Assembly (NCBI GenBank): GCA_031272375.1
Contig: JAISTY010000192.1
Span: 1 to 15,178, forward strand
DNA length: 15,178 nucleotides
Direction: 5' to 3'
DNA from: Opitutaceae bacterium
GTDB taxonomy: Bacteria; Verrucomicrobiota; Verrucomicrobiia; Opitutales; Opitutaceae
Of the stretch, positions 1,913-14,803 are shown piece by piece. The number at the start of each line of letters is the position of its first letter. The stretch's first letter is position 1. The translations under genes were made by a program, and so were the position numbers. The notes under the pieces are model-generated. The model was given only the letters and a program-made list of their open reading frames with translations. It did no database searches and had not been told where the DNA came from.

Positions 1913-2838
1913 CCGTCCCGCCCCGCCGCGCCGCCCGGCGCCAGCTGCCTCGCGTAGGCGCGGTATTTCGCCGGCGTCATCCCCGTCCGCCGGTGGAACA
2001 GCCGGTGAAAATGCGCGACGTCCGAAAAACCCGTCACCAACGCGACCTGGAGGACGCTCATGCCGGAGTCGTTGAGCAGCTCCATCGCGGCGCGCAGGCG
2101 CCGCTGGATCAGCAGATCGCGGAACGTCGCCCCGCAGCATTGCCGGACAACATGGCTGCCGCGGCTCTCGCTCAGGTTCAGCGTCCGCGCCAGATCCGCC
2201 AGCGTGACGTCCTCCGTGTAGTTCTCCTCGATGAACCGCAGCACCGCCGTCTGCCGCCGCGTCAGCGAGCTGCTCGCGAAGGCATCGGGCGACTTCGACG
2301 GCCGCACGTGCTGGAAATCCGCCACCCAGAGGCGCAGCCGCGCGGCAAGCTGCCGCAGATGCTCGAGGATGTCCTGCGCGGCGGCCTCCCCCGCCGGCTC
2401 CGGCGACTGCGCCGCGCGCCAGGGCGGTTTCCGCCAGCGCGTCGGCCGCGCGCGCGGGTGATCCGGCGACAAGTCGCCGCCGGGCAGCCGCGGCCCGGCG
2501 AAAAGCACCCAGGCGAGCTTGCCCGCGTTGAAAACGGGCACGACCCACTCGACCAGCCCGGCGTGGCAGACGTGGACGCGGCCCTCCGGCATCGAGGCGA
2601 GCCTCGGACGGAGCTGGTGCACCTCGAAGGCGATGCACGCCGGCTCGTGCCCGCAGGCCTTGACCGCGAGGCAGAGCGGCGAGCGGTGGTGGAAACGGTC
2701 CGGCAGGATGAACGGCGCGAGGTTGCCCTCAAGGTCGTGGATGCTCACGCGCACCTTGTGGATGCGCTCGAACGCCGAAATCGCCTGCTCGGCGGCGGCG
2801 AGCCTCGGTCGGGGCGGCGGGTTGTCGGGAATGCTCAT
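1906..2838 (-). CDS. AraC-family regulator with PocR-like N-terminal sensor domain
   Basis: A 310-residue two-domain transcription factor. Residues about 13-118 resemble the PocR ligand-binding domain: after a helix comes VSIHDLEGNL, then Cys56, Cys62 and Cys68 (LCLAVKACGHEPAC), then HVCHAGLVEWVVPVF with Cys91-His92 and a WVLFAGP strand. The cysteine pattern is typical of sensors that bind small metabolites or a metal. Residues about 195-297 are the AraC DNA-binding domain, with helix-turn-helix 1 near VTLADLARTLNLSES (211-225) and helix-turn-helix 2 near SVLQVALVTGFSD (261-273), then HFHRLFHRRTGMTPAKYR. The frame stays open far upstream, but the ATG at 2838 places MSIPDN just before the sensor and leaves 166 bp to the divergent dehydrogenase gene. 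That arrangement suggests it controls the dehydrogenase or itself. The ligand is unknown. Confidence 0.88.
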   Translation of the reverse strand: MSIPDNPPPRPRLAAAEQAISAFERIHKVRVSIHDLEGNLAPFILPDRFHHRSPLCLAVKACGHEPACIAFEVHQLRPRLASMPEGRVHVCHAGLVEWVVPVFNAGKLAWVLFAGPRLPGGDLSPDHPRARPTRWRKPPWRAAQSPEPAGEAAAQDILEHLRQLAARLRLWVADFQHVRPSKSPDAFASSSLTRRQTAVLRFIEENYTEDVTLADLARTLNLSESRGSHVVRQCCGATFRDLLIQRRLRAAMELLNDSGMSVLQVALVTGFSDVAHFHRLFHRRTGMTPAKYRAYARQLAPGGAAGRDGQ

Positions 2839-3004
2839 GGGGATTGTTCGGGTCGCGGCGCCGGCGGACAAAAGCGCGGCGCCAGCGGAAAAAGTCAGTT
2901 TCCCGCCCCCGCGCGCAAGGCGTTTCCACGGCGCTCCGTGCTTCACTTTCCGCGCCGCCGCGCCCTCCCTTCCCGCCGGCGGCAAAAACCACTGAAAGGC
3001 ACCC

Positions 3005-3961
3005 ATGAAAATCACAGTCCTCGACGGCCTCACATTGAACCCCGGCGACAATCCCTGGGACGCCCTGCTCGAATTCGGCGGGCTGGCGGTCCACGACCGG
3101 ACGCCTCCCGCGGAAATCCTGACGCGCGCGGCGGACGCCGACATTCTCCTGACGAACAAAACCGTCCTCTCGCGCGAAACCCTCGACAAGCTGCCGCGCC
3201 TGAAATTCGTCTCCGTCCTCGCGACCGGCCACAACGTCGTGGACGGCAAGGCCGCCCGCGAGCGCGGCATCCCCGTCTCCAACGTCCCCACCTACGGCAC
3301 CGACTCCGTCGCGCAGCACGCCCTCGCCTTGCTGCTCGAGCTGACCAACAACGTCGGCGGCGCCGAGCGCGCCGTCCGCGACGGACGCTGGGAGGCCTGC
3401 GCCGACTTCTGCTTCTGGGACCGCCGGACAATCGAGTTGCGCGGAAAAACCCTCGGTCTCGTCGGCTTCGGCAAAATCGGACAACAGATGGGGCGCCTCG
3501 GCCTGGCGCTCGGCATGGACGTGATTTACGCCGACCGCTCCGAGGTGCGCGCCCCCGGCCTCGAAACCGCGCGGCGTGCGACGCTGGAGACGCTGTTCGC
3601 GGAGGCCGACGTCGTCTCGCTGCACTGCAACCAGACGCCGGAGAACGAGCGCTTCGTGAACGCCGCCCTGCTCGGCCGCATGAAGCCGTCCGCCTTCCTG
3701 ATCAACACGGCCCGCGGCGGCCTGATTGACGAGCCGGCCCTCGAGGCCGCCCTGCGCGCGCGGAAAATCGCCGGCGCCGGCCTCGACGTCCTCTCCTCCG
3801 AGCCGCCCTCCGGCGGCAACAGCCTCATCGGCGCGCCGAACTGCGTGATCACGCCGCACGTCGCCTGGAGCAGCCTCGCCGGGCGCCGGCGGCTGATGGC
3901 GACGACCGTGGGGAACGTCCGCGCCTTCCTCGCCGGCGCCCCCGTGAACGTCGTGAATTGA
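3005..3961 (+). CDS. D-isomer-specific 2-hydroxyacid dehydrogenase (glycerate/hydroxypyruvate reductase-like)
   Basis: A 318-residue, full-length NAD-dependent oxidoreductase that interconverts 2-keto acids and D-2-hydroxy acids. The nucleotide-binding motif is GLVGFGKIG (glycines 154, 156 and 159), and Asp177 (YADRS) after the second strand predicts NAD over NADP. The catalytic triad is complete: Arg237 in NTARGGLIDE, Glu266 in LSSEPP and His285 in ITPHVAW. The substrate-side loop LATGHNVVD is seen in glycerate dehydrogenase and hydroxypyruvate reductase relatives, so a D-glycerate-type substrate is likely but inferred. The ATG at 3005 follows a weak purine-rich GAAAGG about 7 nt upstream. 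The gene is divergent from the PocR-like/AraC regulator, which may sense a related metabolite, and convergent with hisS, 18 bp away. Confidence 0.9.
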   Translation: MKITVLDGLTLNPGDNPWDALLEFGGLAVHDRTPPAEILTRAADADILLTNKTVLSRETLDKLPRLKFVSVLATGHNVVDGKAARERGIPVSNVPTYGTDSVAQHALALLLELTNNVGGAERAVRDGRWEACADFCFWDRRTIELRGKTLGLVGFGKIGQQMGRLGLALGMDVIYADRSEVRAPGLETARRATLETLFAEADVVSLHCNQTPENERFVNAALLGRMKPSAFLINTARGGLIDEPALEAALRARKIAGAGLDVLSSEPPSGGNSLIGAPNCVITPHVAWSSLAGRRRLMATTVGNVRAFLAGAPVNVVN

Positions 3962-3964
3962 GCG

Positions 3965-3978
3965 GCGCGCGGGCGCGC
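3965..3978. terminator. Short GC hairpin between convergent genes, possible bidirectional terminator
   Basis: In the 18-bp gap between the dehydrogenase stop and the hisS stop, GCGCG (3965-3969) and CGCGC (3974-3978) pair around a CGGG loop. There is no T-run on either strand, so intrinsic termination would be weak, and such hairpins arise easily in sequence this GC-rich. The placement between two convergent stop codons is the main support. Confidence 0.3.
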
Positions 3979-3979
3979 G

Positions 3980-5293
3980 TCACTTCGCCGACAGAAACTC
4001 CGCCGCGCTTCCGGCGGCCTGTTCGCGCGGCACCTCGCGCTCGCCGCGGGCGGTCATGTCGCGGAGCTTCACAACGCCGCGCGCCAGCTCGTCCGCCCCG
4101 TAAATCAGGGCGAGCCGCGCGCCCGCCTCGGAGGCCAGGCGGAACTGTTTCCCGAAGGGCGTCTCGCGCAACGGATACTCCACGCGGAAGCCGGCCTCGC
4201 GCAGGCGGCGGATGTCGCCGAGCGCCGCCGCCCGCTCCGCCTCCCCGCCGATCACCGCGTAGGCGTCGCAGGCGGGCGCGGGCGGCGGCGGCTTGCCGCG
4301 TTGGTCGAGCAGCAGCCCCATCGTCACGTCGCCGATGGCGAAGCCCGCCGCTGGAAGCGCCGGCCCGCCGAGTTTCCCGACAAGGTCGTCGTAGCGCCCG
4401 CCGCCGGCGATCGCCCGCAGCTCGCCCTTGCGGTCGAAGGCCTCGAACACGAAGCCCGTGTAATACGCCAGGCCCCGCACGACGCCGAGGTCCACCGAGA
4501 CGAAATCCCCCAGCCCCATCGCGCCGAGGCCGCCGAGCAGCTTTTTCCAGTCCGCCAGCCGCGCGGCGATGGCGTCGTTCATGCGGCCCGCCAGCGCCGC
4601 CTCCAGCGCGCCGAGGCCGCGGATGTTGAGAAAGGCGAGGATGCGTTCCCGCGCCCCCGCGGGCAGCGCGCCGTGCTCCTTCTCGAAGGCGTCGAAGACC
4701 GCCTCGCCGGCCTTCTCGAACTTGTCCGCCGCCGAAAGCACGCCGCGCGCCCGCGCCTCGTCGAGGCCGAGCGCCGCGAGGAAATGGAGCCACAGCGTCC
4801 GGTCGCTCAACCGCACCAGAAAGTCCTCCGGCGACAGCCCGAAGGAGGCGATGGTCTGCGCGAGCAGCGCGATCAGCTCGATCTCCGCCTCCGGCCCGGC
4901 CTCGCCGAAAATGTCCGCGTTGAACTGGTAAAACGCCCGCTCGCGCCCGCGCTGCGCCCGTTCGTAGCGGTAAAATTCCGCGATGCTGAACCACTTGATC
5001 GGGCGCTTCAGCGCGTTCGCCTTCGCGCCGACGAGCCGGCACACCGTCGGCGTCATCTCGGGCCGCAACGCCACCTCCCGCCCGCCTTTGTCCGTGAAGC
5101 TGAACAGCTGCGCCTCGATTTCGTCGCCCGACTTGCGCCGGTAAAGCTCCAGCGGCTCCAGCACGGGGCCGTCGTATTCCCGGAACCCGAAGGCCTCCGC
5201 CATCCGCCGCCAGCGCCCGAAAATGAATTTCCGGCGCTCAAGGGCGTCGGGATAAAACTCGCGGAAACCGGGCAGTGACTGGAATTGGCTCAT
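3980..5293 (-). CDS. hisS: Histidyl-tRNA synthetase
   Basis: A 437-residue class II aminoacyl-tRNA synthetase that charges tRNA-His in the cytoplasm. From the N-terminus come the SLPGFREFYPDAL entry helix, the VALRPEMTPTVCR strand-turn near residue 80, motif 2 FYRYERAQRGRERAFYQFN (107-125), the histidine-binding HisA loop VVRGLAYYTGF (271-281) and GGGRYDDL (298-304). A C-terminal anticodon-binding domain runs from about 340. HisA reads GLAYYTG rather than the GLDYYTR type of E. coli, and motif 3 reads AAGFAIGDVTMGL rather than GFAxGLERL; these are lineage variants of a functional enzyme as far as I know. The frame continues upstream, but ATG 5293 (MSQFQSLPGF) is the natural start; no Shine-Dalgarno sequence is seen. 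It lies 62 bp downstream of the TerC-family gene on the same strand. Confidence 0.96.
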   Translation of the reverse strand: MSQFQSLPGFREFYPDALERRKFIFGRWRRMAEAFGFREYDGPVLEPLELYRRKSGDEIEAQLFSFTDKGGREVALRPEMTPTVCRLVGAKANALKRPIKWFSIAEFYRYERAQRGRERAFYQFNADIFGEAGPEAEIELIALLAQTIASFGLSPEDFLVRLSDRTLWLHFLAALGLDEARARGVLSAADKFEKAGEAVFDAFEKEHGALPAGARERILAFLNIRGLGALEAALAGRMNDAIAARLADWKKLLGGLGAMGLGDFVSVDLGVVRGLAYYTGFVFEAFDRKGELRAIAGGGRYDDLVGKLGGPALPAAGFAIGDVTMGLLLDQRGKPPPPAPACDAYAVIGGEAERAAALGDIRRLREAGFRVEYPLRETPFGKQFRLASEAGARLALIYGADELARGVVKLRDMTARGEREVPREQAAGSAAEFLSAK

Positions 5294-5355
5294 GGTTCGC
5301 GGCGATGCAAACGCCCGCGCCGCTCCGCGCCACCCCAATTTTCACAGGGCGGCCT

Positions 5356-6327
5356 TCACGCGCCCCGCGCCGGCGGCGGCTTGTCCGCCTTCGCCGGATT
5401 TAACAGGGAGGCGGCGATGGTGACGGCCAGGATGCCCCCGATGACCGCGAGCGAGAGGGCGATGTCGGGATGCCAGCGGGCGGGCAGCATCATCTTCACG
5501 CCGACAAAGCAAAGGATGGCCGAAAGCCCGATGTTCAGGTAGCGCAGGTGCCGCATCGCCCCGTTCAACGCGAAATAAATCGAGCGCAGTCCGAGAACGG
5601 CGAATATGTTGGAGGTGAAGACGATGAACGGATCCTTTGTGATCGCCAGAACCGCCGGAATGGAGTCCACCGCGAAGGCAAGGTCGGTGCTCTCCACCAC
5701 GAGCAGCACTAAAAAGAGCGGCGTGGCGACAAGGCGCGCGTTCTCCCGGATGAAAAAACGCCCCCGCGCGTCGTCGTTCTCCGCCACGCGAAAGTGTTTT
5801 TTGAAGAAACGGACGGCGACGTTCTTGGAGGGGTCAACATCGTGCGAGCCGGGCAGGGCCATCCTGACGCCCGTCACCACCAAAAAAGCGCCAAGCACAT
5901 AGACAAGCCAGTCAAAGCGTTCCAACAACCGCGCGCCCGCGAGGATGAACACAAGCCGCATGACCGCCGCCCCGACAATGCCCCAGAACAAAACCCGGTG
6001 CTGAAAACGCGCCGGCACCTTGAAAAACAGGAAAACCACTATGAAGACGAAAATGTTGTCCACGCTGAGCGAGATCTCGACAAGATAGCCCGCGAGAAAC
6101 TCCAGCCCGCAGCGCCCGCCAAGCGTTTGCCAGACAATAAGATTGAAAACAAGCGCAAGCGCCCCCCAGACCCCGCACCAGGCGAGCGACACCCCCATCG
6201 CCGGCGTCCGGTTCCGTTTGTGGAAAATGCCGAGGTCGAGCGCGAGCATCGCCGCGACAAACACGCCGAAACCCGCCCACGCCCAGGCGGGGACGGAATG
6301 CGCGGCGGTTGCGGCGGCTGTGTGCAT
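5356..6327 (-). CDS. TerC/Alx-family integral membrane protein (probable metal-ion exporter)
   Basis: A 323-residue polytopic inner-membrane protein with about eight to nine hydrophobic segments. The TerC family includes E. coli Alx and Bacillus proteins linked to manganese export and metal homeostasis. The two internally related acidic signature motifs are present: EISLSVDNIFVF (Glu84, Asp90) and ESTDLAFAVDSIPAVLAIT (Glu212, Asp215, Asp221), with another acidic residue, Asp31, in the first transmembrane segment. A charged cytoplasmic loop (about 160-200) divides the halves, as in Alx. ATG 6327 (MHTAAATAAH) is preferred over a GTG 30 bases upstream because the first hydrophobic segment follows at once. 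Some relatives are controlled by a yybP-ykoY Mn riboswitch; I did not recognise one upstream. The name fits with confidence, but the ion is inferred from the family. Confidence 0.92.
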   Translation of the reverse strand: MHTAAATAAHSVPAWAWAGFGVFVAAMLALDLGIFHKRNRTPAMGVSLAWCGVWGALALVFNLIVWQTLGGRCGLEFLAGYLVEISLSVDNIFVFIVVFLFFKVPARFQHRVLFWGIVGAAVMRLVFILAGARLLERFDWLVYVLGAFLVVTGVRMALPGSHDVDPSKNVAVRFFKKHFRVAENDDARGRFFIRENARLVATPLFLVLLVVESTDLAFAVDSIPAVLAITKDPFIVFTSNIFAVLGLRSIYFALNGAMRHLRYLNIGLSAILCFVGVKMMLPARWHPDIALSLAVIGGILAVTIAASLLNPAKADKPPPARGA

Positions 6328-6493
6328 AGGACGGGCACGGTAGCCCCCCACGGACACCGCGCAAGCGCGGACTGGAACACGAAGGCACGAAGTTTTTTCG
6401 CCTCACAGGAAGCCGAACCAAGCTGGGTCAAAGGAGGGCAGGGGAGCTGGCTTTCTTGGATTGGGTTTGTGTCTTTGTGTGAGCTTTTCCCAT

Positions 6494-6585
6494 CCACGGA
6501 TTCCGCCAATGGTCACAAATTCACAATACATTTAATATCAAAAAGTTCCATCTGTGCAATCCGTGAAGATCCGTGAAATCCGTGG
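6494..6585. repeat. Degenerate ATCCGTG / CACGGAT repeat cluster
   Basis: ATCCGTG occurs at 6559-6565, 6569-6575 and 6578-6584, spaced 10 and 9 bases apart, and the inverted form CCACGGATT is at 6494-6502. Nearby words TTTGTGTCTTTGTGTG (about 6466-6481) and CACGAAGGCACGAAG (about 6378-6392) belong to the same style of low-complexity intergenic repeats (accumulated CACGGATTTCACGG / GTGTCTTTGTG phrases) that I recall from several large environmental genomes, Verrucomicrobiota among them. A related phrase is at 9264-9281. No function is known to me. Confidence 0.6.
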
Positions 6586-6700
6586 TTGGTTTGGGCTGGG
6601 GGAAATGGATAGGTCGTAGGATTAAATAAATTGATTTTAACCAACAAGAAAATCCGAAACGCCACCCATCAAACGCAATCTAATCTTTGCAACTGATTAT

Positions 6701-6734
6701 GTCGGAATAATTTTAGTTGTTTTCTAATTCCGAC
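6701..6734 (+). promoter_or_regulatory. Inverted repeat, candidate operator upstream of the amine operon
   Basis: GTCGGAAT at 6701-6708 and its exact reverse complement ATTCCGAC at 6727-6734 are separated by 18 AT-rich bases, giving a 26-bp centre-to-centre distance, between two and three helical turns. A further half-match, CCGAATAAT (6734-6742), follows the right arm. It sits about 110 bp before the aminotransferase-like gene, where a dimeric regulator could act. No regulator gene for this operon is present in the window, so binding is inference. Confidence 0.4.
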
Positions 6735-6841
6735 CGAATAATCCATTATTAAATCAACTAATTTCAGCATCCGCAAATTCCCTCTTGAACAACCTGCCGC
6801 CGCCCTGTTTCGCAGGGGACGTCAATGCAAACCGTCCGCCC

Positions 6842-8191
6842 ATGTCCACCACGCCCATACTGAATCTCAACCGTTTCGACGCCTCCGCGCCCGGACTTGA
6901 CGCCGCCACGCTTCGCATGGTTCGCCGCCGCGAGGCCGCCTTCGGCCCAAACTCCGTGCTGTTCTACAAAAAACCCATCGTCGTCGCCTCCGCGTCCGGC
7001 GCGTGGATGACCGACACCGACGGCAACCGCTACCTCGATCTCTACAACAACGTCCCTTGCGTGGGTCATAGCAACCAACACGTTGCCAATGCGATATGCA
7101 ACCAGTCGCGCATCCTTTCCACCAACACCCGCTACCTTTACGAAACCATCCACGATTACGCGGAAAAGTTGCTCGCGACATTCCCCAATCCTTTGCGCAA
7201 CATCACTTTCACATGCACCGGAAGCGAGGCCAACGACCTCGCCCTCCAAATCGTCCGCGCCTGCACGGGTGGCGAGGGCATCATCATCACGGAGAACGCT
7301 TACCACGGCAACACCACCGCCGTCGCCGCCTGCTCACCGTCCGCCTGGCGCACCGGCGCGCCGCCGCCCGCGAACATCCGCCGCGTCCCCGCCCCCGAAC
7401 GTTTCCGCTCCGCCGACCCCGACCCCGGCGCCACGTTCTCAAAAAACATCGAACTCGCCATCAACGATTTCCGCGCCAACGGCCTCAAGCCAGCCGCGCT
7501 GCTTGTGGACACTTATTTCACCAGCGACGGCCTCCTCGACGGCCCCGCCGGCTTCCTCGCCCCAGCCTTTGAAACAGCCCGCAAACACGGCCTGCTCGTC
7601 ATCGGCGACGAGGTGCAACCCGGTTTTGGACGCACGGGTGTCATGTGGAACTTTCTGCGCCACAACGCAATCCCGGATCTCGTCACGCTCGGCAAACCGA
7701 TGGGCAACGGGTTCCCGATGGGCGGCGTCGTTGTCCGCCCCGACCTCCTCGACCGCTTCACACGCGAAATCTCCTATTTCAACACCTTCGGAGGCAACGC
7801 GCTCGCCGGCGCCACCGGCCTCGCCGTCCTCGAGGAACTGCAAGGACGGCAGCTTGTTGCGAACGCCGCAAAAACCGGCGCGTATTTGAAAAAACGCCTT
7901 GCCGAACTTGCCAAACAACATCCTTGCATCGGCGATGTCCGTGGCGCCGGCCTCTTTGTGGGCGTTGAGTTTGTTAAAACGCAAGACAAGCTGCCGCAAT
8001 GGGATGGACGTCAACCCGACGCCGCGATCGTCACACGTCTTGTCAACCGCCTGAAGGAACTTGGCGTGCTCATCGGCGCGTCCGGCCCGTTCGCGAATGT
8101 CATCCGCGCCCGCCCGCCGCTTTGCCTGACCGAAACCGAGGCGGATTTCTTCGTCGGAAAACTCGCCCAGGCTCTCGATGAAACAAATTAA
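6842..8191 (+). CDS. Class III PLP enzyme, AGXT2L-like (phospholyase or aminotransferase)
   Basis: A 449-residue fold-type I, class III PLP protein, complete and in the usual size range. PLP-binding residues are visible: GSEAND (127-132), AYHG (153-156), Asp256 in [13 protein letters not shown], and the Schiff-base Lys285 in [14 protein letters not shown]. Several stretches resemble the AGXT2L group (phosphoethanolamine and 5-phosphohydroxylysine phospholyases) more than classical GABA or ornithine aminotransferases: the [13 protein letters not shown] and [12 protein letters not shown] segments, [26 protein letters not shown], and the end [20 protein letters not shown]. Such phospholyases release ammonia and phosphate from a phosphorylated amino alcohol, which would suit the kinase gene at the end of this operon. 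An ordinary aminotransferase remains possible. The ATG at 6842 is preferred over an in-frame TTG at 6785, whose extension looks non-conserved. The next gene begins 24 bp downstream. Confidence 0.88.
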
Positions 8192-8215
8192 ACAACAAGA
8201 CCCTTCCAAGCCGTC

Positions 8216-9184
8216 ATGCAACCGAAAGCCGACCAATCAGAACCGACATTGACAAGCCGCCGCCAGGATCCGGCGCTGGATTATATCAAAAGCGAAAACC
8301 CGCTGTTGCCGCGCTTGTTCAAACGCATCAGCGCGGGGCCGGGCGTGATGGGATTTTTGTCCGCGACACCGTTTTCACTGCTCATGCTCGCCGCGTTCGT
8401 CGCGCCGTTGTTGTGCGTTGTCTGGTTCAGGTTCATGCCGCCGAAATCGTTTTCCCTGCTGCATGTCCCGACGCTCGCGAATTACGCGGAAATCTTCTCG
8501 CACACCTATTACAAATCCGTCCTGTGGTCGCTCGGACTCGCCGTCGCCACGGTTCTGCTGCTGCTGGTGATTTGCTATCCGCTCGCGTTCGCGCTCGCAA
8601 AGGTGTTCCGCGGCGGCGCGGCGTTTGTCACGTATGCCATTGCGAGTTCGTTGTTTGTCTCCGAGAACGTCCGGCTGTTCGGCTGGGTCATCGGGTTGAT
8701 GAAAAACGGCGTCGTCGGCGGCACGCTCGCGTCCCTCGGCTTCCCGATTGAATCATTATTATACAATGTTCCCGTCATATTGCTCGGCATGGTTTATGTG
8801 TATCTGCCTTTCATGCTGTTTCCGCTTGCGCTTGGTGTGCAGATGGTTCCGACGCAGGTGCGCGAGGCCGCCTTTGATCTCGGCGCGACGCGCTGGCAGG
8901 TTCTCAAACGCATTGACCTGCCGCTCTCCATGCCCGGCGTGCTGATCGGCTCGCTGCTCGTGTTCGTCCTCTCCCTCGGCGCGCTGGCGGAGGCAAAGAT
9001 ACTTGGAGGGCAAAAAGTTGTCACCATCGCGGCGGACATCGAAACCGAGTTCACCTTCGGACAAAACTGGCCGCTCGGCTCCGCGCTTTCGACGCTGCTT
9101 ATATTGATAACAACCGTCCTCGTTTTCCTCTGCCTCGGACGTTTCGACCTCGAAAAACTCCTCGGCAAAAAACCGGCGGAATAA
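8216..9184 (+). CDS. ABC transporter permease, polyamine-type (PotB-like)
   Basis: A 322-residue inner-membrane permease of the spermidine/putrescine-type (binding-protein-dependent importer) family. After a polar N-terminal extension of about 45 residues there are six hydrophobic segments, near 50-70, 101-128, 135-160, 184-208, 240-258 and 288-308. The EAA loop that docks to the ATPase is well formed: REAAFDLGATRWQVLKRIDL followed by PLSMPGVL (about 216-243). Length and loop fit the first of two permeases in a heterodimer; the partner is the gene at 9312. It lies 24 bp after the PLP enzyme gene and probably shares its transcript. The substrate cannot be read from the sequence; an amine or amino alcohol is suggested only by family and neighbours. 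The matching ATPase and binding protein are absent from the window. Confidence 0.9.
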   Translation: MQPKADQSEPTLTSRRQDPALDYIKSENPLLPRLFKRISAGPGVMGFLSATPFSLLMLAAFVAPLLCVVWFRFMPPKSFSLLHVPTLANYAEIFSHTYYKSVLWSLGLAVATVLLLLVICYPLAFALAKVFRGGAAFVTYAIASSLFVSENVRLFGWVIGLMKNGVVGGTLASLGFPIESLLYNVPVILLGMVYVYLPFMLFPLALGVQMVPTQVREAAFDLGATRWQVLKRIDLPLSMPGVLIGSLLVFVLSLGALAEAKILGGQKVVTIAADIETEFTFGQNWPLGSALSTLLILITTVLVFLCLGRFDLEKLLGKKPAE

Positions 9185-9263
9185 AAACAGCAATGAATAG
9201 ACATGAAATTAACCGCTCCGTGCTCTTTTCGATTAAACACAAACTCCGTTCCCTCCCGCCTCT

Positions 9264-9286
9264 CTCCGTGACCTCTGTGTGATAAT
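9264..9286. repeat. CTCCGTG-ACCTCTGTGTG phrase in the gap between the two permease genes
   Basis: The 127-bp gap 9185-9311 is unusually long for two permeases of one transporter. It contains CTCCGTG (9264-9270) followed directly by ACCTCTGTGTG (9271-9281), in the same style as the degenerate repeats at 6494-6585. The phrase runs into GATAAT (9281-9286) preceded by TGT, which resembles an extended -10 element, but there is no matching -35, so an internal promoter is only a possibility. Confidence 0.3.
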
Positions 9287-9311
9287 ATAAACCGTCAACA
9301 TTCCAAAAACC

Positions 9312-10115
9312 ATGCTCATCTCACGCGCGCAAAAAACCGGACTGTCATTATACGCCACGCTCACGCTGCTGTTGTTTTATTTCCCGCTCGTGTGCCTGCT
9401 CGTCGCGGCGGTCTCCCAAAAAAGATATTTCTCATTCCCCTATCCGCTGGAAAATGTGACAACCAAGTGGTTCGCGGAGGCTATTGCCTCGGAACAAGTT
9501 GCCGAATACGTCGGCGTCAGCCTGAAAATCGCCTCGCTGACGACCGTGCTGTCCGTCGGCATCGGTTTTTTCGCCGCGCTCGCCTACGCGCGGCACGCGT
9601 GGAAGTGCCGGAGGATGTTTCAGAAAATCGTGCTGCTGCCGCTGTTTTTCCCGCAGTCGGTTCTCGGCCTGGCGTTGTTGATGTGGTTTAACTTCCTCGG
9701 TGTCACCCCTTGCTGGCAGACGGCCGTCATCGCGCATACCGTTTGGATAGCACCGATTGCGACTCTCATCATGGCGATACAGGCCTACGGTCTCGATCCG
9801 TCGCTGGAGGAGGCCGCGCGCGACATGGGCGCGGGAACGCCGCGCATTTTGGCGCGCATCACGCTGCCGTTGATGGCGCCAGGAATGGTGTCGGCGGCTT
9901 GTTTCTCATTGCTGTTATCATGGGGCAATTTCGCGCTTTCATTATATACAACAGGCGCGGACAGCGCGCTGCCGGAATGGCTTTATGCCAGAATGACAGG
10001 TGGATACAAACCTGTCGTCCCGGCGATCGGCATATTGTCCGTCGTGGCGGCCGTGGCGGTGTTGTTGCTATTGTTCGGCGCCATGAAACTCGCCGCCAAA
10101 CGCCGCGCCGCATGA
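9312..10115 (+). CDS. ABC transporter permease, polyamine-type (PotC-like)
   Basis: A 267-residue permease, the usual length for PotC-type subunits. Six hydrophobic segments can be seen near 12-34, 68-93, 104-129, 136-158, 190-212 and 237-259. The EAA loop reads LEEAARDMGAGTPRILARIT with LPLMAPGM after it (165-192), next to the VLLPLFFPQSVLGLALL core. It should pair with the permease at 8216 to form the membrane channel of an importer. Codon use includes several TTA and TAT codons (for example 9350-9355 and 9941-9946), less GC-biased than the left side of the window. The ATG at 9312 has no clear Shine-Dalgarno sequence. Transport direction and EAA-loop role are family knowledge; the substrate is unknown. 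Confidence 0.9.
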   Translation: MLISRAQKTGLSLYATLTLLLFYFPLVCLLVAAVSQKRYFSFPYPLENVTTKWFAEAIASEQVAEYVGVSLKIASLTTVLSVGIGFFAALAYARHAWKCRRMFQKIVLLPLFFPQSVLGLALLMWFNFLGVTPCWQTAVIAHTVWIAPIATLIMAIQAYGLDPSLEEAARDMGAGTPRILARITLPLMAPGMVSAACFSLLLSWGNFALSLYTTGADSALPEWLYARMTGGYKPVVPAIGILSVVAAVAVLLLLFGAMKLAAKRRAA

Positions 10116-10148
10116 TTATTTCCCGGACCGGACAATATAACCCATACT

Positions 10149-10172
10149 ATATACAACATACCATATACAACA
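10149..10172 (+). repeat. Two direct copies of ATATACAACA upstream of the SDR gene
   Basis: ATATACAACA is at 10149-10158 and again at 10163-10172, a 14-bp period, in the 68-bp gap before the dehydrogenase start. The same ten bases occur once more inside the upstream permease gene (9944-9953). The gap is AT-rich compared with the genes. It could loosen structure around the ribosome-binding site or be a small tandem duplication; no function is evident. Confidence 0.45.
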
Positions 10173-10177
10173 AAGGA
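10172..10177 (+). promoter_or_regulatory. Shine-Dalgarno sequence of the SDR gene
   Basis: AAAGGA lies six bases before the ATG at 10184. It is the clearest ribosome-binding site in the window, where most starts lack one, and it decides the start of the short-chain dehydrogenase although the frame is open for a further 470 bases upstream. Confidence 0.7.
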
Positions 10178-10183
10178 AAACAC

Positions 10184-10969
10184 ATGAACTCCTCCCTCCT
10201 CGGCAAATCCGCCATCGTCACAGGCGCCACAAAGGGCATCGGCAAGGGCATCGCCCGCGTCCTCTCCCAAAAGGGCGCCAACGTCATCATCGCCGGACGC
10301 GACACCATTCTCGGACAAGCCGCCGCCGTCGAACTCAACGCAACCGCCACCCCTAACGGCGGTTCCGTCACGTTCGTCCGCGCCGATGTCACGCTCCGCG
10401 CCGACATCGAGGGCCTCGTCGCCACCGCCGTTGAACGCCAGGGCGGTCTTGACATCCTTTGCGCAAATGCCGGCGCCTTCCCGGCTTGCAAAATTGCCGA
10501 ACTCACGGACGCCGCCTGGGACGCCCTCTTTGCCACCAACGCCCGCAGCCTCTTCGCCTGCGTCCAGGTCGCCCTTCCGCATCTCAAAAAGTCCGCTTCC
10601 GGGCGTGTGGTCATCACATCCTCAATTACCGGCCCAATAACCGGTTATCCTGGCTGGGCGCATTACGGGGCGACCAAGGCGGCCCAACTCGGTTTTATGC
10701 GCACTGCCGCCATCGAACTTGCCCGCGACAACATCACCGTCAACGCCGTCCTTCCCGGAAATATTTACACGGAAGGACTTGCGAATGTCGGCCCCGAATA
10801 CATTGCCGCGACGACCGCCGCCATTCCCCTCAAGCGTCTCGGCACGGTTGACGACATTGGCCACGCCGCCGCCTTCCTTGCCTCCCCCGAAGCCGGTTTC
10901 ATCACCGGTCATGCCATCGTTGTTGACGGCGGCCAAATCCTCCCCGAATGCCCCGCCGCCCTCGAATGA
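10184..10969 (+). CDS. Short-chain dehydrogenase/reductase (FabG-like SDR)
   Basis: A 261-residue classical SDR with a complete active site. The cofactor motif is TGATKGIG (13-20), with GRD at 38-40 after the second strand, which leans toward NADP. Then come ADV (67-69), CANAG (93-97), Asn119 in the FATNARS helix, the serine in ITSSITG (146-147) and Tyr161/Lys165 in YGATK. The C-terminal stretch NAVLPGNIYTEGL, followed by a DIGHAAAFLAS and VDGGQ ending, resembles FabG-like catabolic dehydrogenases rather than the fatty-acid FabG itself. In this operon it could reduce or oxidise the carbonyl or hydroxyl product of the PLP enzyme; that role is inferred. Start ATG 10184 has a good AAAGGA six bases ahead. 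An AACCTGTCC-type repeat begins 15 bp after its stop. Confidence 0.92.
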   Translation: MNSSLLGKSAIVTGATKGIGKGIARVLSQKGANVIIAGRDTILGQAAAVELNATATPNGGSVTFVRADVTLRADIEGLVATAVERQGGLDILCANAGAFPACKIAELTDAAWDALFATNARSLFACVQVALPHLKKSASGRVVITSSITGPITGYPGWAHYGATKAAQLGFMRTAAIELARDNITVNAVLPGNIYTEGLANVGPEYIAATTAAIPLKRLGTVDDIGHAAAFLASPEAGFITGHAIVVDGGQILPECPAALE

Positions 10970-10983
10970 ATGATCCTCCCCGA

Positions 10984-11005
10984 AAAATAACCTGTCCCTT
11001 ATTCC
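10984..11005 (+). repeat. Dispersed repeat copy A (core AACCTGTCCCTTATTCC)
   Basis: This 22-bp unit begins AAAAT and continues with the core AACCTGTCCCTTATTCC. It is identical to copies at 11768-11789 and 11796-11817 and nearly identical to one at 11838-11859. It lies in the 80-bp gap between the SDR and hydrolase genes and is followed by low-complexity text (TTCCAACTTTTAACTTCCAA). It looks like a REP-type intergenic repeat; whether a transposase mobilises it is not visible here. Confidence 0.8.
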
Positions 11006-11049
11006 GGATTCCAACTTTTAACTTCCAATTACAAATCCCCGAATTACTT

Positions 11050-11757
11050 ATGTGGCGAACAGCCCACCGCTCCTTCTACTACGAAAACCTCGACGCTGAC
11101 GCGCTCCCCGAGCCGCGCCTGCCTGTTTCCCAAACCGCCCTCCTCCTCATTGACCTGCAGCAAGGCTTTATCCCACAACAACCTCCGCCCGACGCCCCCG
11201 ACGCCGCCCTCCGCGAATACACCCGCTGGCTGCCTTTTGTTAACCGACTCAACAACACCGTATTACCCAACGTCACGCGCCTCCTTAACGCCCTCCGCCC
11301 CACGCCTGCCGCCCGCGCCATCGTCCACACCCGCATCACCAGCCGCACCGCTGACGGTCGCGAACGCTCCATCAGCCATGCACGCCTCGGCTTCAACAAC
11401 TTGCATTTCCCGCCCGGCTCCGCTCCCGCGCAATTCCTGCCGCAAGTCGCCCCGTTGTCCGACGAAATCGTCCTCGGCAAAACCACCGACAGCGCCCTCG
11501 CAAGCACACCTTTGCGTTTAATCCTAAATAATTTACAAATCCGTCACGTCATCGTTGCCGGCATTTACACCGACCAATGCGTCTCCTGCACCGTCCGCGC
11601 TCTCGCCGACGAGAATTACGATGTCATTCTTGTCGAGGACGCCACCGCAGCCGCCACCGATGCCCTCCACAACGCCGAACTTGCCATCCTCAACAACATC
11701 TACTGCCAGGTCCTCACCACCGAGGAAACCATCAACCACATCATCACCAATGAATAA
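11050..11757 (+). CDS. Isochorismatase-family cysteine hydrolase
   Basis: A 235-residue member of the isochorismatase-like fold, which includes nicotinamidases, N-carbamoylsarcosine amidases, ureidoacrylate hydrolases and related amidases. The catalytic triad is intact: Asp35 in ALLLIDLQQGF, Lys144 in VLGKTTDSAL and Cys177 in GIYTDQCVSCTV. The cis-peptide strand VIVAG (168-171) precedes the cysteine loop. The second cysteine, Cys180, is an extra. The cysteine nucleophile argues for amide, carbamoyl or ureido hydrolysis rather than vinyl-ether cleavage. The frame is open upstream through repeat A, but ATG 11050 (MWRTAHRSFYYEN) starts just before the conserved region; no Shine-Dalgarno sequence is seen. 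Copies of the same 22-bp repeat lie on both sides, all in the same orientation. The substrate is unknown; in this operon it may open an N-acyl or carbamoyl form of the amine. Confidence 0.9.
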   Translation: MWRTAHRSFYYENLDADALPEPRLPVSQTALLLIDLQQGFIPQQPPPDAPDAALREYTRWLPFVNRLNNTVLPNVTRLLNALRPTPAARAIVHTRITSRTADGRERSISHARLGFNNLHFPPGSAPAQFLPQVAPLSDEIVLGKTTDSALASTPLRLILNNLQIRHVIVAGIYTDQCVSCTVRALADENYDVILVEDATAAATDALHNAELAILNNIYCQVLTTEETINHIITNE

Positions 11758-11767
11758 CGCAACATCC

Positions 11768-11870
11768 AAAATAACCTGTCCCTTATTCCCGCCCGAAAAT
11801 AACCTGTCCCTTATTCCCCCTCTCCTTTCCGCCTCCTGAATTAACCTGTCCCTTATTCCACCTGTCCCTC
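11768..11870 (+). repeat. Three and a half direct copies of the AACCTGTCCCTTATTCC repeat
   Basis: Copies B (11768-11789) and C (11796-11817) are identical over 22 bases. Copy D (11838-11859) has the same 18 3' bases but begins GAATT. A partial copy, ACCTGTCCCTC, runs from 11860 to 11870. Offsets are 28 and 42 bases, too irregular for CRISPR. The array fills nearly the whole 120-bp gap between the hydrolase and kinase genes and ends 7 bp before the kinase ATG, so it occupies the place where its ribosome-binding site should be. Confidence 0.85.
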
Positions 11871-11877
11871 CACACCA

Positions 11878-12918
11878 ATGAATACCAGCACACCAGCCGC
11901 CACCGCATTTGACGCCCTCCCCGTCACCGAACAACTCGGGCGCGTCAAAAATCTTGCACGCCAGGCGCTTCCGCTTTACGGGCTGCCTTTTGACAGCGAC
12001 ATCTCCCTTCTCAACTACTCCGAAAACGCCACCTGGCTCGTCAAGCCGCCGCCGGAAACACCCAACCTTTTCCCCAAGCGAGTGTTGCGCATAAACCGCC
12101 CCGGCTACAACCCGCGCCCCAACATCAACACCGAACTCGACTGGGTCCTCGCCATCCGCCGCGACACCCCCATCATCACCGCCGACCCCATCCCCGGTCT
12201 CGACGGAGAATTCGTCCAACATATTTGGCACAAAGATGTTCCACAGCCGCGCAATTGCGTCCTCCTCACCTTCCTCGAAGGCGTCCAACCCGACGAAACC
12301 AACCGCCGCGCCGCCTTCCAACTCCTCGGCGACGTCACCGCCCGGCTCCACAAACATGTCCTCAACTGGCGCCCCCCGCGCCCTCTCCATCGCCTCCTTT
12401 GGAACTTCGACAACCTCATCGGCCCCAACGCTTACTGGGGCAACTGGCGCGACAATCCCGACCTCGACGCCCCCACCCGTGCCCTCATCGAACGCGCCCT
12501 CCCTCTCATCCAAAAACGCGTCACCGCCCTCGGCACAGACCCCGACCGTTTCAACCTCATCCACGCCGACCTTCGCGACGCCAACCTCCTCATCCACAAC
12601 GGACAAGTTGCCGCCATTGACTTCGACGACTGCGGCTTCTCCTGGTTCATGCACGACCTTGCCGCCGCCTTGAGCTTCATGGAAACCGCGCCCGACGCCC
12701 CCGACTGCGTTGACGCCTGGTTCACTGGCTACAACAAAATCCGCACCCTCTCCAAACCCGAACGCGATGAACTTGACACGTTTATCCTGTTGCGGCGCCT
12801 GCAATTAACCGCATGGATAGGCAGCCATGCCGACACCGCGCAAGCCCGAAGTGTCCGCCCCGGACACGCCGCCGGCACCGCCCTGCTTTGCGAGAAATAC
12901 CTCCGGAAACACGCCTGA
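11878..12918 (+). CDS. APH-fold small-molecule kinase (phosphotransferase family)
   Basis: A 346-residue kinase-like protein of the aminoglycoside/choline phosphotransferase fold, which phosphorylates hydroxyls of small molecules with ATP. N-lobe: SENATWLV (48-55) and the KRVLRINRPGYN strand (67-78). Catalytic loop: LIHADLRDANLLI, with His229, Asp231 as the base and Asn236. Metal-binding AIDFDDCGFSWF (Asp248, replacing the usual DFG). The C-lobe carries RPPRPLHRLLWNFDNLIGP and AYWGNW. The RINRPGYN and WGNW features are those of a bacterial family often annotated only as phosphotransferase. Relatives include hydroxylysine kinase and SrkA. Being in the same operon as an AGXT2L-like enzyme supports an amino-alcohol substrate, but a protein-kinase-like role cannot be excluded. 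The ATG at 11878 is right after the repeat array. The stop lies 1 bp from that of the convergent gene. Confidence 0.88.
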   Translation: MNTSTPAATAFDALPVTEQLGRVKNLARQALPLYGLPFDSDISLLNYSENATWLVKPPPETPNLFPKRVLRINRPGYNPRPNINTELDWVLAIRRDTPIITADPIPGLDGEFVQHIWHKDVPQPRNCVLLTFLEGVQPDETNRRAAFQLLGDVTARLHKHVLNWRPPRPLHRLLWNFDNLIGPNAYWGNWRDNPDLDAPTRALIERALPLIQKRVTALGTDPDRFNLIHADLRDANLLIHNGQVAAIDFDDCGFSWFMHDLAAALSFMETAPDAPDCVDAWFTGYNKIRTLSKPERDELDTFILLRRLQLTAWIGSHADTAQARSVRPGHAAGTALLCEKYLRKHA

Positions 12919-12919
12919 C

Positions 12920-13549
12920 CTATTCCCTGTCCAATTCCCCAAAACGCGTCGCCTTGCTGTTGGATATCCACACCGGATAATCCCCTTTTGATTTCCAGCC
13001 GGACGTCAGCGGCGAGGGGGCGGAGGCGTCCTTTGTTTTTATGCCGAGCCAGTCGCGCACAAGATTATAGTTTTCCTCCGTGCAATACAGATCCTCCACC
13101 GTCCCAAGGCGTTGTGCTTTCGATTTGTCGGCCCACCAAATCCACATGGGAATTTCAGCCGCCTCCTTTTTTGCATGGCCGACGGCGTGTTTATAAACCC
13201 ATTTTCCGAAGGTTTTCACCCGTATCAAGGCGTGGTCGGAATAATATAACACCGATGCCCGCCGGTTTTCCAGCGCCTTGAAAATTTTCCCGATGACATA
13301 ATCCGTGTAATGGATGCTGTCGTCGTAATAATCGTCCTCGCGGATGTCGCCGGAGAATTTGCGCATCGCCGCCGGATAATTGTTTCCGGGCGGCTCGTGG
13401 CTTCCGCGAATATGCAATATTATCAATTTGCGACCGGGCGTTTTCAACACCGCCTCCATTCTTCCGACCAGCGTCTCATCATATTCCGAGGTGTCGCCGA
13501 ATTCCACAACATCCGCCATCCGGGCAAGCTTTGAAAAGCCGATGTTCAT
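12920..13549 (-). CDS. Phosphoethanolamine transferase, C-terminal catalytic half (separate frame)
   Basis: This 209-residue frame supplies the second half of the alkaline-phosphatase-fold domain of an EptA/CptA-type phosphoethanolamine transferase. It contains LIILHIRGSHEP (His51), DDSIHYTDYVIGKIF (78-90), VLYYSDHA (Asp105, His106) and HAVGHAKKEAAEIPMWIWW (His121, His125), the usual Zn ligands and substrate residues of the family. It has no membrane segment or nucleophile; those are in the frame upstream, whose stop overlaps this start as ATGA. Together the two give about 561 residues, a normal family length. Either the gene was split by a one-base change near 13551-13557, or the halves are made separately by translational coupling. 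The 3' end is 1 bp from the convergent kinase gene. Confidence 0.82.
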   Translation of the reverse strand: MNIGFSKLARMADVVEFGDTSEYDETLVGRMEAVLKTPGRKLIILHIRGSHEPPGNNYPAAMRKFSGDIREDDYYDDSIHYTDYVIGKIFKALENRRASVLYYSDHALIRVKTFGKWVYKHAVGHAKKEAAEIPMWIWWADKSKAQRLGTVEDLYCTEENYNLVRDWLGIKTKDASAPSPLTSGWKSKGDYPVWISNSKATRFGELDRE

Positions 13550-14604
13550 TGTCCGCCCTCGCCTTGAAGACTGATCCAGAAGGTCTTATAACCTGCCGCC
13601 TTCGCGAGCGTGATGATATTGTCCCCGATGAGACGCGGCAACGCATGTTCTCCCGCGTCCCTCTCCATGTTGCATAATGTCCGCGAAACCGCGAGGCGCG
13701 TTTCGATCGCCGGCGATATCGCGTTCGCAAACAGCAGCATGTTTCCGCGGCGCGCGACCTCCTCCGGCGCCGTCTCCCTCGTCGCTCCGTATAATGACAA
13801 CGCCCGCCGCCGCGCCGACTCGCCGATGACGATTATATAATCATCCACATCCGTCGCGGACACCGAAACCTCGATGTCGGGCGGGGTGAGTTCAAAGGCG
13901 TTCTCATCCAGACGGGCATGACGGACATATTCGCGCGCGTGCAAAAAGGCCGCCACATTGTATAGGGGCGTGTTAAAAAGCATATAGCCGCCCACGCACA
14001 CGGTTATGTCATCCCTGTGCTCCTTGTGACGGCGCATTTCGTAAGCGCATGAAATAACAGCAAGTAGCATGACGAACAAGCCGCCGCCGAGGACGAATGC
14101 GCCCGTCAGCCGCCTCGGAAAACACCTTGATATTTTCGCGGTCAGAAAAAGCAGCGCGAGAAACAGGAGCAGGAACACAACGCCCCATTGCCAGTGTTGG
14201 GAAACCTGTCCGCCCGCCTCGGTTGAATTTGTTTCTATCACATTCAACGCCATCCCGATGTCGAACCGGGTGTTGTATTCAATTTTATATAAAAGGGTGG
14301 TTGTCCAATTCAGCGTCCATGCCAGCAACAACATTGACGAAACCACCCGTCCGGCAATCCCGCGCCACAAAAACGCGCAAAGGGACAGGTAAGCAAACCC
14401 CGTTATGAAAAGTCGGGGGAGCCGGCTTTGTGTCGGCCATGCGGGATCATAGGCCAGGGCGAGGCAAACCGCCACGGCGACCGCCAGCCACCCCCAAAAC
14501 TTTCGGTCGCGGACGGCTCCGCACACATCCCCGATGAGGGAGCTGTGCCATTTTACAGTTGTATTAGCATCGTTTCTAACTGGATACGATTTTGCATCAG
14601 GCAT
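13546..14604 (-). CDS. Phosphoethanolamine transferase, N-terminal membrane half (frame-split)
   Basis: The 352-residue product has five hydrophobic segments (about 37-52, 63-81, 87-106, 139-156 and 168-187), as in EptA-type transferases that add phosphoethanolamine to lipid A or other envelope glycans. A periplasmic stretch follows, with the start of the catalytic domain: DDYIIVIGESARRRALSLYG (Glu262 as metal ligand) and ISPAIETRLAVSRTL, where Thr302 is the likely nucleophile. AKAAGYKTFWISLQGEG then ends at a TGA that overlaps the next frame's ATG. In relatives this point runs straight into the part encoded by that frame (IxxxARMADVV). The ATG at 14604 (MPDAKSYPVRN) is chosen over an upstream start at 14718 that would read through the terminator hairpin. 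The first 30 residues have AT-rich codons. The substrate acceptor is unknown. Confidence 0.82.
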   Translation of the reverse strand: MPDAKSYPVRNDANTTVKWHSSLIGDVCGAVRDRKFWGWLAVAVAVCLALAYDPAWPTQSRLPRLFITGFAYLSLCAFLWRGIAGRVVSSMLLLAWTLNWTTTLLYKIEYNTRFDIGMALNVIETNSTEAGGQVSQHWQWGVVFLLLFLALLFLTAKISRCFPRRLTGAFVLGGGLFVMLLAVISCAYEMRRHKEHRDDITVCVGGYMLFNTPLYNVAAFLHAREYVRHARLDENAFELTPPDIEVSVSATDVDDYIIVIGESARRRALSLYGATRETAPEEVARRGNMLLFANAISPAIETRLAVSRTLCNMERDAGEHALPRLIGDNIITLAKAAGYKTFWISLQGEGGQ

Positions 14605-14608
14605 GGCG

Positions 14609-14632
14609 AAGGCGCGTTGGTGCGCGAGCCTT
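14609..14632 (-). promoter_or_regulatory. Hairpin directly before the transferase start codon
   Basis: On the minus strand AAGG, a CT bulge, CGCG, the loop CACCAA, CGCG and CCTT form a stem that ends four bases before ATG 14604. It would occupy the ribosome-binding region, and no Shine-Dalgarno sequence is free nearby. It could restrain translation, but the stem is short and the sequence GC-rich, so it may be chance. Confidence 0.3.
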
Positions 14633-14672
14633 GGCCGATGCCGGATGCCGTTCGGACGCTGGGTGTGCCTGC

Positions 14673-14700
14673 AAAAAAAAGAGCGTGTCAGTTCACGCTC
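14673..14700 (-). terminator. Rho-independent terminator on the minus strand
   Basis: GAGCGTG (14681-14687) and CACGCTC (14694-14700) are perfect complements around a 6-base loop. On the minus strand the stem is followed at once by eight T residues (plus-strand A-run at 14673-14680). This is the clearest intrinsic terminator in the window. It would end transcripts arriving from the right, 69 bp before the transferase ATG, so it is either the end of a gene lying to the right or an attenuator in the transferase leader. Confidence 0.85.
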
Positions 14701-14803
14701 CATTGCTGGCACGACCAAGCGCCATTGAACGAACGCTCACCAACACGCCCGCTGGGGGCGTTGGCGAAGCGCTGTCGTTCGTCACTTTGGTCGTTTTGCA
14801 ATG
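14701..14803 (-). ncRNA. Nested inverted repeat, candidate structured RNA ending in the terminator
   Basis: Four sets of arms are nested around one centre: CATTGC (14701-14706) with GCAATG (14798-14803); ACGACCAA (14711-14718) with TTGGTCGT (14787-14794); ACGAACG (14729-14735) with CGTTCGT (14776-14782); and CCAAC plus GCCC (14740-14744, 14747-14750) with GGGC plus GTTGG (14756-14759, 14760-14764) around a GCTGG loop. A second CCATTG at 14722-14727 could replace the outermost arm. In minus-strand RNA this gives a hairpin of about 100 nt that leads straight into the U-tract terminator. It could be a small RNA, a transferase leader, the folded 3' end of an upstream transcript, or a palindromic mobile repeat. 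No known RNA family was recognised. Confidence 0.5.

Follow-up and report, generated by a model that had tools for sequence, protein, structure and literature searches.

A candidate kinase-phospholyase operon for a small amino alcohol in an Opitutaceae genome and an apparent exchange of its pyridoxal-phosphate enzyme

We analysed a 15,178-nucleotide contig of an Opitutaceae bacterium (JAISTY010000192.1 of assembly GCA_031272375.1, our contig C158; hereafter the window), which carries a group of genes predicted to break down an imported amino alcohol by phosphorylation and elimination. The genome assembly comprises 1.46 Mb in 242 contigs and is 67.6% complete.

Six genes of the window

Six genes on the plus strand between positions 6842 and 12918 encode a class III pyridoxal 5′-phosphate (PLP) enzyme, two ATP-binding cassette (ABC) permeases, a short-chain dehydrogenase (SDR), an isochorismatase-fold hydrolase and an APH-fold kinase (Table 1). 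The phospholyase-family PLP enzyme thus stands ahead of the permeases, and the hydrolase directly before the kinase. A preliminary description of the sequence had listed six co-directional genes with these domains, and both the open reading frames and the domain calls hold, all six exceeding the Pfam gathering score; an automatic open-reading-frame list puts earlier start codons on some of them. The successive intergenic distances are 24, 127, 68, 80 and 120 bases, and these short gaps make co-transcription likely. We count 1 promoter-like site compared with 1.9 in shuffled sequences, and 11 terminator-like sites compared with 8.6 (standard deviation 3.0). The cluster is not a chance grouping, since a five-gene order is kept in seven other Opitutaceae loci and all six families are found together in Agrobacterium fabrum C58.

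Table 1. Genes of the six-gene cluster and their Pfam domain scores
Gene product	Position	Strand	Domain match
Class III PLP enzyme, ethanolamine-phosphate phospho-lyase / 5g4i phospholyase family	6842..8191	+	Aminotran_3 PF00202, 236.8 bits
PotB-like ABC permease	8216..9184	+	BPD_transp_1 PF00528, 34.1 bits
PotC-like ABC permease	9312..10115	+	BPD_transp_1 PF00528, 54.8 bits
Short-chain dehydrogenase, aminopropanol-dehydrogenase-like	10184..10969	+	adh_short_C2, 194.6 bits
Isochorismatase-fold cysteine hydrolase	11050..11757	+	Isochorismatase PF00857, 111.6 bits
APH-fold kinase, (S)-1-amino-2-propanol-kinase-like	11878..12918	+	APH PF01636, 67.9 bits

Unlike a full polyamine ABC transporter, the window encodes half an importer, with two permeases and neither binding protein nor ATPase. 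The best NCBIfam models for the permeases are PotB (139.4 bits, cut-off 348) and PotC (103.7 bits, cut-off 326). In six of the related Opitutaceae loci (L016-L020 and L072) a binding protein and an ATPase precede the permeases, and the seventh (L021) begins at the ATPase. The same genome holds candidates for both missing parts, an ATPase at C103:7676-8770 (73% identical) and a binding protein at C138:4759-5919 (69% identical), which are the likely partners of the window permeases. Other open frames lie between each of them and its nearer contig end, so the importer genes appear to be dispersed in this genome. The preliminary description spoke of amine import by polyamine-type permeases; at this locus the importer is incomplete, its likely partners being on C138 and C103.

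The PLP enzyme, kinase and dehydrogenase and their neighbourhoods

Among the best 60 of 193 matches to solved structures, the window PLP enzyme scores 332.6 bits with 5g4i and 284.6 bits with human 6tor, and the next class III enzyme reaches 172.6 bits; 5g4i is presumably A1RDF1 of Arthrobacter aurescens. In a 28-row tree built under a mixture model, with three E. coli transaminases as outside references, the window enzyme, 5g4i and 6tor fall in one 13-row clade (support 100/99) that stands apart from the transaminases tested, and a 74-row quick tree concurs (98 for the window enzyme with 5g4i, 94 with 6tor added). Phylogeny had been suggested as a check on the enzyme, and it groups the enzyme with phospholyases. 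The tree program gave a long-branch warning for 5g4i, the E. coli references and L080, a Tsukamurella plasmid sequence included in both trees. Two rows that look mistranslated and have a very long branch (L090, L092) are in the 74-row tree and the phospholyase counts and were left out of the 28-row tree; L083, L088 and L089 were excluded because the fragments as cut contained stop codons, and L050 and L022 because they were too short. The sister of the phospholyase clade (join 100/100) consists of five enzymes from Opitutaceae which have retained Arg at the GabT R398 position. Among them, L101 (L084 in the tree) has an Amidohydro_1 protein as a neighbour, and inspection by eye adds a permease and an aldehyde dehydrogenase; such a neighbourhood suggests pyrimidine or beta-alanine breakdown. 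The database proteins P0002 and P0003, one of them named Opitutaceae, are 66% and 61% identical to the window enzyme, and the only other strong matches among 115 genomes (E 1e-60 or better) come from 23 genomes and are 35-39% identical.

The residues of the family were read from an alignment of 148 rows, in which the window is counted twice (WIN and P0001), near-identical rows are kept and L080 is left out. We take GabT residues 79, 211 and 398 to be active-site positions. The E211 column holds Ser in 146 rows, Thr in 1 and Cys in 1 (Ser228 in the window), and the R398 column holds Lys in 144 and Arg in 4. Residue 97 in window numbering is Arg in 148/148 rows (Gln, Gln and Val in GabT, PatA and ArgD), and residue 424 is Arg in 147 and Lys in 1 (Leu, Glu and Ala in the same three enzymes). 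The window enzyme thus has its clade and conserved residues in common with 5g4i/5g4j and 6tor, differing from them at residue 422, where it carries Arg instead of Lys.

For the kinase, 6ef6 is the best solved relative (221.5 bits, residues 25-343 of 346); the next structure reaches 50 bits. The motifs HADLRxANLL and IDFDDCGF align between the kinase and 6ef6. The SDR scores 283.6 bits with 3pk0, 266.0 with 6ci9, 265.9 with 6ci8 and 253.4 with 3rih, the next match being at 151 bits. The structure search returns general molecule names only for these matches; we take 6ef6 to be the moderately specific (S)-1-amino-2-propanol kinase of M. smegmatis, 6ci8 and 6ci9 to be the 1-amino-2-propanol dehydrogenase of the same organism, and 3pk0 to be a mycobacterial SDR. 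Mallette and Kimber reportedly described this kinase and dehydrogenase in 2018, and the abstract of the kinase paper is said to tie the kinase to a candidate phospholyase; the titles of both papers appear in the reference list of PMC8007038, in the part considered here. Searching the 115 genomes with the kinase at E <=0.001 gave matches in 9: the genome itself, five at 57-63% identity and three that are weak (19-27 bits).

Scanning genome contigs with the kinase yielded 52 loci on stretches of 3 to 21 kb, the family assignments resting on bit thresholds chosen in this analysis. The closest named loci are from Opitutaceae, Geminisphaera colitermitum (60%) and Opitutus sp. (58%), and the other 50 are at most 45% identical. 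A phospholyase of the window type is present in 21 loci and a different class III PLP enzyme, here called AT2, in 15, with both in 0 and neither in 16. If the two were independent about 6 loci should hold both (p 7e-5, kinship uncorrected). An SDR is found in 15/21 phospholyase loci and 14/15 AT2 loci, and in 4/16 loci with neither. In four of the 52 loci (L059, L061, L063 and L066, all Methylophaga) the kinase and the phospholyase form a single reading frame. Co-occurrence of the kinase and PLP genes, for which a neighbourhood survey had been proposed, is thus seen in other genomes, and neighbourhoods of the kind mentioned in the preliminary description are common. Of the outcomes named there as refuting, neither a grouping of the PLP enzyme with true aminotransferases nor a lack of co-occurrence was observed.

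From 105 plasmid matches listed, nine plasmid loci were examined. Agrobacterium fabrum C58 (L077; pAt, ATU_RS25115-ATU_RS25080) brings together genes of the same six families as in the window (kinase, phospholyase, SDR, hydrolase and two permeases) with a binding protein and an ATPase; it differs from the window in gene order, in being split into three units by strand, and in identities of 38-54%, and its products bear general names only. Plasmid pRHL2 of Rhodococcus jostii RHA1 (L076) encodes a 44%-identical PLP enzyme amid microcompartment genes, near a kinase and an aldehyde dehydrogenase. The C-terminal 31 residues of this PLP enzyme are those of its aldehyde dehydrogenase, as expected for a PLP enzyme packed with it. 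In the same stretch (L076 2588-9518) four microcompartment proteins appear twice under the same accessions. On a plasmid of Chelatococcus sp. CO-6 (L079, 8940-18920) a phospholyase-family gene overlaps by a few bases with an annotated phosphotransferase that the kinase threshold used had missed; this pair stands just before annotated ectoine-breakdown genes.

The clade, the columns and the fusions bear on whether the PLP enzyme is an ordinary omega-transaminase, with the kinase phosphorylating something else as in a lactaldehyde/lactyl-CoA scheme. In favour of this, annotation calls homologues aminotransferases, the Arg at residue 422 is what transaminases have, and such an enzyme has been proposed for the microcompartment in the sections of PMC6620236 considered. 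Set against this are the 100/99 phospholyase clade, the separate Opitutaceae sister enzymes that include one in a pyrimidine/beta-alanine-looking gene group, the loss of the Glu211 equivalent in all 148 rows, and the kinase-PLP fusion. We regard an ordinary transaminase as very improbable here.

A predicted route for small amino alcohols

Gene content, family relationship, co-occurrence, fusion and clade were computed, and from these we infer the reactions, their order, the substrate and co-transcription. Together the six genes would probably break down a small 1,2-amino alcohol without a microcompartment shell, the most likely substrates being (S)-1-amino-2-propanol and its ketone aminoacetone, singly or together. 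Uptake of the amine would fall to the polyamine-type ABC importer, and the hydrolase would probably release amine from an amide- or carbamoyl-type precursor, which is the weakest step. The SDR would interconvert aminoacetone and 1-amino-2-propanol, and the kinase would form the O-phosphate using ATP. In the last step the PLP enzyme would make an external aldimine and eliminate phosphate, after which the enamine would hydrolyse to propionaldehyde and ammonia. The preliminary description had placed the SDR after the lyase, acting on the aldehyde or ketone; since two of its closest solved relatives are presumably 1-amino-2-propanol dehydrogenase, it most likely works before the kinase instead, from amino ketone to amino alcohol.

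The best named family for the hydrolase is biuret amidohydrolase (NF050097), from which it is set apart by a score of 68.9 bits, far under the cut-off of 370. The candidate Asp (LxIDxQ), Lys (KTTDSA) and Cys (TDQCV), which we assume to be the catalytic residues, are kept in 10/10 aligned rows, the window among them. A hydrolase part precedes AT2 in two database proteins, nearly whole in P0152 and partial in P0166. Because the hydrolase is found alongside both types of PLP enzyme and is fused to AT2, it appears to belong to the pathway.

A larger hydroxy-amine, such as 5-hydroxylysine or a hydroxylated polyamine, would suit a polyamine-type importer. The importer subunits are indeed closest to PotB and PotC, and AGXT2L2 acts on 5-phosphohydroxylysine according to the preliminary description and, going by its title, to Veiga-da-Cunha 2012. 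Yet importer family says little about substrate, and the association of the RHA1 enzyme with an aldehyde dehydrogenase and a shell suggests a small aldehyde, so we give this substrate class hardly any weight.

The same kinase-lyase chemistry could instead serve ethanolamine, giving acetaldehyde, or some other small amino alcohol; the SDR would then either reduce the aldehyde or oxidise the alcohol. The solved relatives 5g4i and 6tor carry the names phospholyase and ethanolamine-phosphate phospho-lyase, and we take 5g4i to act on phosphoethanolamine. EutB follows the kinase in L019, L020 and L021 and is found close to it in Oceanobacter mangrovi (L060), and in Chimaeribacter a gene annotated as ethanolamine permease stands between the kinase and the PLP enzyme. 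Against ethanolamine, the SDR is closest to what we take to be aminopropanol-type SDRs, the best solved relative of the kinase is presumably a moderately specific (S)-1-amino-2-propanol kinase, and the genome already has an EutB of its own (81%). That gene lies on contig C28 (L116, 3372-8052), behind what by eye resembles a set of TRAP transporter genes, so ethanolamine is probably handled by a route of its own in this genome. We regard this alternative, ethanolamine or another small amino alcohol in place of aminopropanol, as rather unlikely.

The idea of such a pathway is not new, and its chemistry is most likely of a known kind. In the sections of PMC4207490 and PMC6620236 considered, a microcompartment locus comprises phosphotransferase, SDR, aminotransferase and aldehyde dehydrogenase genes, the SDR-containing locus is linked to 1-amino-2-propanol, the PLP enzyme is treated as an aminotransferase, and Verrucomicrobiota are not named among the hosts. 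The aminoacetone/1-amino-2-propanol microcompartment loci of Mycobacterium and Rhodococcus, called RMM or Aut, have three enzyme families in common with the window: the kinase and the SDR, judged by their solved relatives, and the class III PLP enzyme, judged by the RHA1 protein. They differ in their bacterial microcompartment shell genes, in having an amino acid or GabP-type permease where the window has ABC permeases, and in their GntR gene, which the operon lacks. A search for the shell protein PF00936 gave no match in the 1.46 Mb of this 67.6% complete genome, window contig included. The variant described here is without a shell and has another importer and a hydrolase.

Several points weigh against the aminopropanol phospholyase pathway. 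Unlike the RMM/Aut loci, the operon has no aldehyde dehydrogenase. Residue 422 of the window enzyme is Arg, in the column where 144/148 family rows have Lys; as far as the alignment shows, the four Arg rows are WIN and P0001 (both the window), P0002 and P0003, which sets the subgroup of the window apart from the Lys-bearing majority and weakens the full family match. Among the NCBIfam models shown, no match above cut-off names the PLP enzyme, hydrolase, permeases or kinase, the SDR comes out as FabG, and the solved phospholyase 6tor is named for ethanolamine phosphate. Neither PLP enzyme is found in 16 of the 52 kinase loci, some of which are simply short stretches, and in the Tsukamurella plasmid (L080, 9950-12164) the class III enzyme that comes next after a kinase homologue has residues closer to dialkylglycine decarboxylase than to a phospholyase. 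In the sections considered, PMC6620236 draws a scheme with a true aminotransferase and a lactyl-CoA route, and PMC4207490 considers methylglyoxal and lists RMM1 hydrolases without naming their kind. That RMM1 is reported with hydrolases, and that AT2 is also found without this kinase, slightly lowers our confidence in both the pathway and the function proposed for AT2 below.

An apparent replacement of AT2 in the Opitutaceae lineage of the window

The seven related Opitutaceae loci (L016-L021 and L072) have the order permease, permease, SDR, hydrolase, AT2, kinase, and differ from the window in having AT2 between hydrolase and kinase and no window-type phospholyase. Their identity to the window is 56-62% for the kinase, 65-79% for the SDR, 55-65% for the hydrolase and 64-81% for the permeases (PotB-like 70-81%, PotC-like 64-71%). 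L018 and L072, with identical kinases and identical AT2s, look like one locus. The window kinase belongs to an eight-row group of its family (SH-aLRT 99), and the seven others are all paired with AT2. AT2 is only 22-27% identical to the window PLP enzyme (23-25% in the seven Opitutaceae loci), which is its sole match at E 0.001 in the incomplete genome (26%), and the 120 bases that separate the window's hydrolase and kinase genes showed no relic of it. The simplest reading of these sequences is that AT2 was replaced by an enzyme with the same job. Alternatively, AT2 might have done another job that has since been lost; about a third of the genome is unseen.

If replacement occurred, the residues of AT2 point to what its job may have been. 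In all 142 aligned rows the E211 column is Thr, the R398 column Gln, residue 97 His and residue 424 Lys, and the listing holds at least 120 matches, all with the same four marker residues. Because the transaminase Glu/Arg pair is gone in 142/142, AT2 is a candidate second phospholyase family, and its two basic residues (97 and 424) occupy positions where phospholyases carry Arg. In trees AT2 falls outside the phospholyase clade and groups with E. coli PatA (88/90), a placement for which long branches were flagged; if it is also a phospholyase, it would therefore be separate in origin. Identification of AT2 as an already named enzyme was tried and rejected: its best solved relative is 4ppm (161 bits), which we take to be PigE, and with none of the NCBIfam models shown (25 of 69) does it come near the cut-off. 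PbfA, a known class III lyase according to the part of PMC8154272 considered, has a cut-off of 525 bits and is matched weakly by AT2 (166 bits) and at only 181 bits by the window enzyme. Where AT2 has a name in annotation, it is a putrescine, acetylornithine or aspartate aminotransferase.

Of the 52 kinase loci, 14 have shell-protein matches; nine of these 14 contain AT2 and none a phospholyase, and in the other five the DNA stretch ends before the position that AT2 has in L040. The nine AT2 loci also carry aldehyde dehydrogenase and microcompartment shell genes, in L040 in the order AT2, aldehyde dehydrogenase, shell genes, kinase, SDR, GntR. AT2 is also found on two rhizobial plasmids, from Phyllobacterium (L073) and Mesorhizobium (L074), at about 2060-11260, with DeoR, a dipeptide-type importer and a phosphodiesterase-type gene. 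There it lies directly 3′ of an alkaline-phosphatase-type gene, whose L073 copy is a type I phosphodiesterase by Pfam, and no window-family kinase was found in these two stretches. A phosphorylated amine could be supplied there from a diester, and weak PhnA matches of the phosphatase-type gene make a phosphonate role possible. Our literature search gave no description of the kinase-AT2 pairing among the matches listed; the 2018 kinase paper was not covered.

We tentatively propose, with confidence just short of even, that AT2 is a second, separately derived class III phospholyase family that makes the aldehyde in some aminopropanol-type microcompartments, that it can be replaced by the AGXT2L-type enzyme, and that the two were exchanged in the lineage of the window within Opitutaceae. 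His97 and Lys424 of AT2 would then hold the phosphate much as Arg97 and Arg424 do in the phospholyases.

The composition of the contig offers a further view of its history. GC content is about 69% in the first 6 kb and falls to about 58% beyond. Third-position GC is 0.73-0.77 in the operon, lower than in the upstream genes (0.81-0.92) and in the genome's own binding protein (0.92) and ATPase (0.86), which makes later acquisition of the operon possible. A chimeric contig need not be invoked, as both halves have kin in the window's family: in the high-GC half, the HisZ/HisS-like gene shows 56-70% identity across the 12 same-family genomes searched and 47-52% across six of the same order, and the kinase, in the lower-GC half, has counterparts at 57-63% in five genomes of the family and at 58-60% in two records named as Opitutaceae. 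Downstream, on the minus strand at 12920-14718, an EptA/CptA-like phosphoethanolamine transferase is split into two frames (N-terminal 13546-14718, C-terminal 12920-13549) by a frameshift or assembly error; its third-position GC of 0.65-0.66 is the lowest among the window genes measured. Within 10965-11859 a 19-base repeat, ATAACCTGTCCCTTATTCC, has one copy between the SDR and the hydrolase, and two exact copies and one near copy in the hydrolase-kinase gap, the place of AT2 in the relatives. One further exact copy is present in the genome, on contig C102, and the repeat is possibly a trace of rearrangement.

Altogether, the preliminary interpretation is partly supported, and it had not seen the exchange of PLP enzyme. 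The kinase-phospholyase route outside microcompartments is now tied to an importer and a hydrolase. The exchange is more informative than the pathway itself, being a natural experiment that bears on AT2 function, and it is the function of AT2 that merits testing. The 2018 kinase paper is said to favour a phospholyase in the microcompartment. Published proposals assume a transaminase there, in the sections of PMC4207490 and PMC6620236 considered. The function of AT2, if established, would help to settle the role of the PLP enzyme in aminopropanol microcompartments.

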